Positions 41,190-44,463 of a DNA stretch of 64,000 nucleotides are shown piece after piece. Source of the stretch: Flavobacteriales bacterium (GTDB taxonomy: Bacteria > Bacteroidota > Bacteroidia > Flavobacteriales_G > JALEGO01); NCBI GenBank assembly GCA_020628935.1, contig JAHDEG010000004.1, positions 149,893 through 213,892 of the forward strand, given 5' to 3'. Below the pieces are notes generated by a model. The model saw only the letters and a program-made list of their open reading frames with translations. It ran no database searches and was not told the origin of the DNA. Position 1 is the stretch's first letter; every line of letters starts with the position of its first letter. The position numbers were made by a program, and so were the translations under genes.

Positions 41190-42549
<1,360 letters not shown>

Positions 42550-42567
42550 ACTGCTTCAAAATTACGA

Positions 42568-42575
42568 TATCTTTG
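42568..42575 (+). promoter_or_regulatory. -7-like element TATCTTTG upstream of rlmN
   Basis: TAnnTTTG match just before ATG 42580. Confidence 0.45.
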
Positions 42576-42579
42576 TAAG

Positions 42580-43620
42580 ATGAATAGGGTTAAACCTGAT
42601 ATTAGAACGTTATCTATTAAGCAAATAGGGACATTTTTAGAAGAAAAGGGCGAAAAAGCATTTAGGGCTAAGCAAATTGATGAATGGTTATGGAAAAAAT
42701 CTGCTCGAAATTTTGCAGATATGACCAACCTATCTACAGCTTTAAGAGCTTTACTTGAAGAAAACTTTTCTTTTAAAACTGCTAGCATAAATAACAGCCA
42801 AGTTAGTAATGATAGAACTATTAAAGCTGCTGTTAAGTTATTTGATGGAAATTTTGTAGAAAGTGTTTTAATTCCTACTAAAAGTAGAGTTACTGCTTGT
42901 ATTTCTTCACAAGTTGGCTGCAGTTTAACTTGTGCTTTTTGCGCCACTGGTAAAATGGATAGAAAACGAAATTTAACTGTTGGTGAAATTTATGACCAAG
43001 TGGTTTTAATTAAAAACCTGGCTAAAGAACAATACAATCAGCAGTTAACTAACATAGTGTATATGGGAATGGGTGAACCATTACTTAACTACAAAAATGT
43101 TATTGAGTCTGTTGAAAAAATAACTTCCGACAAAGGTTTAGGAATGTCGCCAAGTAGAATTACAATTTCTACTGCTGGAATTGCCAAAATTATGAAGAAA
43201 TGTGGCGATGATAATGTAAAATTTAATCTTGCTTTATCTCTTCATGCTGCGAATGATAAGAAAAGGAATAAAATTATGCCCATTAATGAGTCTAATTCTT
43301 TAGTTGAATTAGGTGAGGCAATTAAGTATTATCATGAAAAAACAGGCAACCGAATGTTTTATGAGTATATTATTTTTAAAGATTTTAATGATACTTTAAT
43401 GGATGCGCAAGAACTTGCTGAATTTTGCAAAATATCTCCCTGCAAAATAAATATTATTGAATACAACTCTATTGATGATGGAGAGTTTCAGCAAGCAGAT
43501 ATTAAAAAAGTGGATGCTTTTGCTGATTATTTGACTTCAAAAAACCTTATCGTTAATGTTAGAAGAAGTAGAGGTAAAGATATTGATGCTGCCTGCGGAC
43601 AATTAGCCAATAAAAGCTAG
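42580..43620 (+). CDS. rlmN: 23S rRNA (adenine2503-C2)-methyltransferase (radical SAM)
   Basis: CISSQVGCSLTCAFCATGKMDRKRNLT (CxxxCxxC), NIVYMGMGEPLLNYKNV; ATG 42580 preferred over track start 42535. Confidence 0.96.
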   Translation: MNRVKPDIRTLSIKQIGTFLEEKGEKAFRAKQIDEWLWKKSARNFADMTNLSTALRALLEENFSFKTASINNSQVSNDRTIKAAVKLFDGNFVESVLIPTKSRVTACISSQVGCSLTCAFCATGKMDRKRNLTVGEIYDQVVLIKNLAKEQYNQQLTNIVYMGMGEPLLNYKNVIESVEKITSDKGLGMSPSRITISTAGIAKIMKKCGDDNVKFNLALSLHAANDKKRNKIMPINESNSLVELGEAIKYYHEKTGNRMFYEYIIFKDFNDTLMDAQELAEFCKISPCKINIIEYNSIDDGEFQQADIKKVDAFADYLTSKNLIVNVRRSRGKDIDAACGQLANKS

Positions 43621-43628
43621 TATTACTA

Positions 43629-43894
43629 ACCTGAGTTCGACTTATAATATGCTTTCAGAACCATTTAAAATAGTGGAGTTTTAATTTTTATTGACGTGGG
43701 ATTAACTGGTTAATTCGAGGAAACAAAGAGTAAAAGGCTGCATTTTAAATGGTTTCCGCAAGCGGATTTGTTTCTAAAGTGCTTCTTCCTCGTTTTAATT
43801 ATATCGAAATAGCTTTGCTATCTCTTCATAATCAAGCCTTGAAGAAATACCTTAATAACTCAAACTGAAAGCTCATTATAAGTCGAACTCAGGT
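43629..43894. mobile_element. MITE-like non-autonomous element, 266 bp
   Basis: TIRs ACCTGAGTTCGACTTATAATATGCTTTCAG (43629-43658) and CTGAAAGCTCATTATAAGTCGAACTCAGGT (43865-43894), 28/30 complementary; TSD TACTA at 43624-43628 and 43895-43899; no substantial ORF inside. Confidence 0.9.
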
Positions 43895-43896
43895 TA

Positions 43897-44319
43897 CTAT
43901 ATAACAGGCAACACTTTTTTTCTATTAATGCTGTTATAATATATTTCTGTAGCTATATCTGTTACTGGTAACTGGCAATCTCTTGTTGTAGAAACCTTTT
44001 CTTCTATACAGTTAAATGTAACAATTTTGGTTCCTGAATGGCAAAAACCTTCTTCATCTGCTATTGTGAAATCTAAGTATTTGTTTCCATCTAACGTAAA
44101 TTTCTCCACTAAAATACATTTGTCTTTTAATTCTAGATTATTTCTGTATTCATTATTAAATTTTGCGATTTTGTTTTTCACCCAGTTCGATGAATTTGAA
44201 AAATTTTCATACTCTTCTGAGCATATATCAACTTTTGCAGATACTCCATCACACCCAGAATTTGACATAAGAAGCAACATTGAAAATAAATTAATTACCC
44301 GTACTATTAACTGCCCCAT
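43897..44319 (-). CDS. Hypothetical lipoprotein
   Basis: MGQLIVRVINLFSMLLLMSNSGCDG signal with Cys; no family recognised. Confidence 0.55.
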   Translation of the reverse strand: MGQLIVRVINLFSMLLLMSNSGCDGVSAKVDICSEEYENFSNSSNWVKNKIAKFNNEYRNNLELKDKCILVEKFTLDGNKYLDFTIADEEGFCHSGTKIVTFNCIEEKVSTTRDCQLPVTDIATEIYYNSINRKKVLPVI

Positions 44320-44463
44320 TAGATTGAATTTACTATGCAAACATAGCTTTTGAACAAATACAGTAAAAGTATATTTAAAACACTTAACATTTAGTTAATA
44401 CTGAACCATTAGATCTAAGCTTAGTAATTGATGTAAAAGGGTAATTGAGATAGAGAATGCTTC

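Follow-up and report, generated by a model that had tools for sequence, protein, structure and literature searches.

A 266-bp mini-element with IS982-type ends between convergent genes of a Flavobacteriales bacterium

The element downstream of rlmN

In the window, by which we mean the whole 64-kb stretch of DNA that was analysed, rlmN and the gene of a putative lipoprotein converge upon a short element. The features of the locus are as follows.

42535-43620, + strand: rlmN, stop codon TAG at 43618-43620, 8 bp before the element (open reading frame; Pfam RlmN_N and Radical_SAM)
43624-43628: left target-site duplication (TSD), TACTA (read in the sequence)
43629-43894: non-autonomous element of 266-bp, very probably an IS982-type MITE (its own genome also has another 266-bp copy, a pair of deletion derivatives and a solo end)
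43629-43658, + strand: left TIR, ACCTGAGTTCGACTTATAATATGCTTTCAG (28/30 against the right end; first 12 bp as in IS982-type insertion sequences)
43659-43754: internal hairpin A, a long imperfect inverted repeat with base AACCATTTAAAAT/ATTTTAAATGGTT (predicted fold; two double-sided changes against the second full copy, L002)
43755-43766: small central hairpin, TCCG(CAAG)CGGA (predicted fold)
43770-43859: internal hairpin B, apical AATAGC(TTT)GCTAT (predicted fold)
43865-43894, - strand: right TIR, pairing with the left end
43895-43899: right TSD, TACTA, in which the lipoprotein gene has its stop codon (read in the sequence)
43897-44340, - strand: putative lipoprotein gene, 147-aa, convergent with rlmN (open reading frame; lipobox-like LLLMSNSGC read from the sequence)

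The initial annotation described a MITE-like element with 30-bp TIRs and a perfect 5-bp TSD, and the coordinates bear this out. The TIR arms match at 28 of 30 positions (20 matches, 2 mismatches, then 8 matches), TACTA is found at both flanks and the list of open reading frames holds none of 60 aa or more inside the element. When TIR and TSD are counted together, a repeat search of the window returns 35-nt arms that are 91% complementary. Moreover, the window contains the TIR 20-mer at exactly two places; 100 shuffles give an expectation of 0, even when 3 mismatches are allowed. The element is short, AT-rich and, as first proposed, carries no transposase of its own. Removal of the element together with one TSD copy leaves 5 bp between the two stop codons, and the stop of the lipoprotein gene (CTA on the + strand) lies inside the right TACTA; both points agree with the earlier description. 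The insertion duplicated all five bases of the target, the lipoprotein stop codon among them, and both convergent genes are therefore whole. The 147-aa product itself has no Pfam match. Downstream of rlmN the gene order differs in the relatives examined, which include no genome of the same genus, and an empty-site comparison is uninformative.

Copies in the same genome

The element is not confined to the locus at which it was first noticed. Its own genome, an assembly of 22 contigs that totals 2.13 Mb and is 82% complete, contains a dispersed family that comprises, besides the window copy, one more full copy, two deleted copies and one solo end. The second full copy (L002) is also 266-bp long, lies in the opposite orientation, is approximately 90% identical to the window copy and has no target duplication; at L002 1500-1775 it is separated by 2 bp and 6 bp from the ends of convergent mutY-like and hemW-like genes, their stop codons included. 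The third copy (L003) is 166 bp long and is flanked on each side by TATTA. Relative to the window copy it lacks approximately 100 bp, apparently through a deletion between short repeats of TTTC. The fourth (L004, ~155 bp) is likewise flanked by TATTA but has one eroded TIR; with its TSD still intact, the deletion probably came after insertion. Divergence among the copies is 10-17%, which suggests that the burst of transposition was not recent.

The fifth locus (L005) holds only a lone end of the element, abutted by a palindrome with ~30-bp arms (GAGAGCTTTGCATGGTTAGAAATAATTAAT) at about 1410-1505 of that locus (contig C6, about 28.7-28.8 kb), which is either a separate small element or an artefact of the assembly. 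Separately, a pair of matches to the Flavo-1 RNA (L003 1647-1790, + strand, and L004 1330-1474, - strand; 34.7 / 35.6 bits) falls below the gathering score of 42 and adjoins two of the element's four copies. The Flavo-1-like repeats and the element may simply share convergent intergenic gaps.

The interior of the window family matched only copies in its own genome, and many other interiors with these ends are related across species (~70-80% identity). An exact search of named genomes with the window 20-mer gave no match, and no copy of the element was found in plasmid and phage collections.

Ends shared with IS982 insertion sequences

The initial annotation had left the parent family unnamed; it is very probably IS982. 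The 17-bp TIR core ACCTGAGTTCGAYTWWT bounds complete IS982 elements of 1.0-1.07-kb in other Bacteroidota, and ACCTGAGTTCGA is identical at both ends of such elements carrying an IS982 transposase. Thus the TIR is common to the window element and to full-length insertion sequences, the two agreeing in their first 12 bp. Neither observation that the initial annotation would have taken as a refutation was made, since further copies exist in the genome and full-length insertion sequences carry the TIR. An IS982-type parent of the window element would be expected to have ACCTGAGTTCGACTTATAAT ends.

A search with ACCTGAGTTCGAYTWWT matched 5 of 42 order-relative and 16 of 395 class-relative genomes, compared with a single match for the reversed-pattern control. 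Genome G142 contains an intact element of 1065 bp that is bounded by these ends (L039; TSD TATTA/TATTA), whose 299-aa transposase matches the NF033520 IS982 model at 2.2e-78, far above cut-off. Genome G198 has a 1027-bp element with a split transposase frame, and in genome G087 a transposase remnant adjoins a TIR end. The G198 transposase is read as two overlapping frames of 188 and 119 aa (L040 764-1661), reflecting either decay or a possible frameshift.

A TIR scan of named genomes returned at least 116 loci, nearly all of them Bacteroidota among the matches listed; these span Flavobacteriales, Sphingobacteriales, Bacteroidales, Cytophagales and others, with a few MAGs labelled otherwise. 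IS982-type transposase sequence lies beside the TIR at 14 of the 116 loci listed. Pedobacter arcticus (L117; TSD TATCA/TATCA) and a Urechidicola MAG (L183; TACTA/TACTA) each carry an intact element of 1009 bp. Transposases within this TIR elsewhere are 59-70% identical to the G142 protein. A plasmid protein search recovered more distant members of this IS982 subgroup, whose TIRs fit: the Persicobacter (TGGAT) and Segatella (TATTA) members end in ACCTGAGTTCGG, those of Leptospira and Nostoc have ACGTGAGTTCGAC, and ACGTGAG(T/C)TCGA ends occur in Leptospira, Nostoc and Phocaeicola. At only ~26-27% identity, IS982s end differently (L069, ACCCGTTTAG). The TIR is therefore a marker of one IS982 subgroup.

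Target-site duplications

We took 53 elements that had been accepted on TIR match alone, three intact insertion sequences included, and compared their flanks. A perfect 5-bp direct repeat borders 30 of the 53, and a further 14 match at 4 of 5 positions; random re-pairing of the flanks gives an expectation of 2.9 perfect repeats and a maximum of 8 in 200 trials. At lengths of 3, 4 and 6-9 bp, 0 or 1 of the full set of 56 elements has a perfect repeat, and a 2-bp match is seen in 24, because the target begins and ends in TA. The TSD consensus is TANTA, with T at position 1 in 30/30 and A at position 5 in 29/30. Mini-elements and intact insertion sequences thus have in common a 5-bp target, T(A)NTA (TATTA/TATCA/TACTA).

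Position between convergent genes and predicted fold

Both the location and the fold of these elements bear on whether they have acquired a function. A MITE-derived module domesticated by the host, its hairpins acting as a bidirectional transcription terminator or 3′-UTR stabiliser between convergent genes, would account for the position of the copies in the genome under study. Each of the four with both flanks has convergent genes on its two sides, and for two of them the distance to either stop codon is 2-8 bp. The gene pairs, whose names other than rlmN come from reading translations and not from a family search, are:

rlmN / lipoprotein gene
mutY-like / hemW-like
cation-efflux-like gene / anmK-like
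SPOR-domain-like gene / secreted-protein gene

The same tendency is seen across Bacteroidota. When 44 elements were placed relative to genes with a simple ORF caller, 18 fell between convergent genes. By comparison, convergent gaps in these loci account for 12% of gene pairs, for ~10% of the intergenic sequence and for 8% of the sites that match TANTA. However, purifying selection against insertions into promoters and genes explains this location bias equally well, and selection against damage is enough to account for it. At the rlmN locus the site would have been tolerated because no promoter or reading frame was disturbed.

The fold is likewise compatible with a domesticated module. The predicted RNA fold has a TIR stem that encloses a pair of long hairpins and a small one, and relative to shuffles the whole window element, each strand taken as RNA, scores z -8.6 and -9.7, mainly through the TIR stem; the interior alone scores -2.3 and -3.6. 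The median z is -2.6 for the interiors of 53 mini-elements and -0.2 for the DNA that flanks them (Mann-Whitney p 4e-15, the elements not being independent, since several have common ancestry), and z is below -3 in 45% of interiors and 2.5% of flanking DNA. Against this, only 3 double-sided changes separate the window copy from L002, a number not beyond that in shuffles (68/500), and a simple T-tail consensus scan found no terminator-like site. We therefore consider domestication unlikely. It is similarly improbable that the elements form an ancient, phylum-wide Bacteroidota superfamily of mini-elements with IS982 ends that usually persist after the parental transposase has gone and are kept as folded two-way terminators or 3′-end stabilisers between convergent gene ends.

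Origin of the element

We conclude, with a probability of roughly 0.93, that the window element is a non-autonomous MITE of the IS982 family, mobilised by an IS982 transposase in trans and inserted at TACTA. The element is real, the earlier reading of it is correct and the mechanism is a standard one. An IS982 transposase supplied in trans would recognise the ACCTGAGTTCGA ends, the TACTA target would be cut with a 5-bp stagger as the element is inserted, and repair would duplicate the target, placing the lipoprotein stop codon within the duplicated 5 bp and leaving both convergent genes intact. The element, its TSD, its multi-copy family and the identical ends and target on intact Bacteroidota IS982 elements are all directly observed. 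Mobilisation in trans is how the element, judged from its sequence, would have moved. Direct descent from an IS982 element by internal deletion is a candidate route only, as no interior likeness to the intact insertion sequences was seen and resemblance is confined to ~20 bp of TIR.

Neither an IS982 profile nor a search with the G142 protein found an IS982 transposase in this genome, the assembly of which is 82% complete. Assemblies frequently miss insertion sequences. Among 18 other TIR-bearing genomes a matching transposase or remnant lies at these ends in 3 (G142, G198 and G087); two genomes (G004 and G138) have degraded IS982 fragments with no near-exact TIR nearby. We infer that the transposase has been lost from, or is absent in, the genome that carries the window element.

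Derivation from some other family that has ACC ends or duplicates 5 bp of its target, for example an IS5-type or Tn3-type element (TIME), is very improbable. The DDE domain is distantly common to IS5, and ISPg3, which has similar ends, was filed under IS5 (PMC4596501). However, ISPg3 is the former name of IS195 (PMC5771137), and IS195 has been placed in IS982 (PMC13305171). Moreover, every intact transposase found within this TIR is IS982-like, from the G142 protein with its NF033520 match to the others. A small regulatory RNA encoded by the element, to which a match in its right half to Rfam Hrs10 might point (28.7 bits, E 4e-4 on 701 bases), was rejected as highly unlikely: the gathering score is 108 bits, the 90%-identical copy L002 gives no such match, and the alignment tracks a generic hairpin with many unpaired positions.

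Relation to known mini-elements

With an IS982 origin preferred, the window element is a new family, in a new host, of a known kind of element, the IS982-derived MITE. One published precedent is MITECca01 of Cardinium cOegib, which is also from Bacteroidota, ~240-bp long, IS982-derived and mostly intergenic (PMC9769881). However, MITECca01 has 169 copies alongside its intact parent ISCca4 in one genome, whereas the window family has ~5 copies and no parent was found in its genome. Another is MITE239 of Porphyromonas gingivalis, which is short, lacks a transposase, comes from the same phylum and has a published TIR, ACGTGAGTTCGATATAA / ACGTGAGTTCGATATAAAGGAA, that begins ACGTGAGTTCGATATAAAGG and is nearly the same as the window TIR (PMC4596501). 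The comparison covers the TIR, of which the third base is G in MITE239 and C in the window element; the hosts differ. The TIRs of MITE293 and MITE700 are said to match ISPg3 (PMC4596501), now IS195 of the IS982 family. The intact IS982 insertion sequences of G142, P. arcticus and the Urechidicola MAG share with the window element the first 12 bp of the TIR and the 5-bp T(A)NTA target, but are ~1.0-1.07 kb long and carry a DDE transposase gene. QMITE2 of Coxiella is a bacterial MITE that lies mostly in 3′ untranslated regions, and MITE transcripts have been described as stable stem-loops (PMC10969869); the species is unrelated, and the likeness is one of description.

What is mildly new is the spread of such elements across Bacteroidota and their bias towards convergent genes. 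No mobile-element title was among the listed literature matches to the TIR sequence, and we found no description of the phylum-wide set or of its bias in the searchable open literature, which is weak evidence. The 17-bp signature detects IS982-type insertion sequences and mini-elements alike across Bacteroidota. Such repeats break assemblies and stay unannotated, and for one of them the parent family is now fixed. Moreover, the persistence of mini-elements without a resident parent (a transposase or remnant in only 3/18 genomes) and their clustering between convergent genes become questions that can be counted.

Genome G007 carries mini-elements of another family (L024, L027-L029), in which these ends enclose a folded core (TCAATCTCCC...GGAGGGATTGA). 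Many contigs of that genome (L023, L025, L030-L034) end ~80-170 bp inside such an element, and the element repeats appear to break its assembly.
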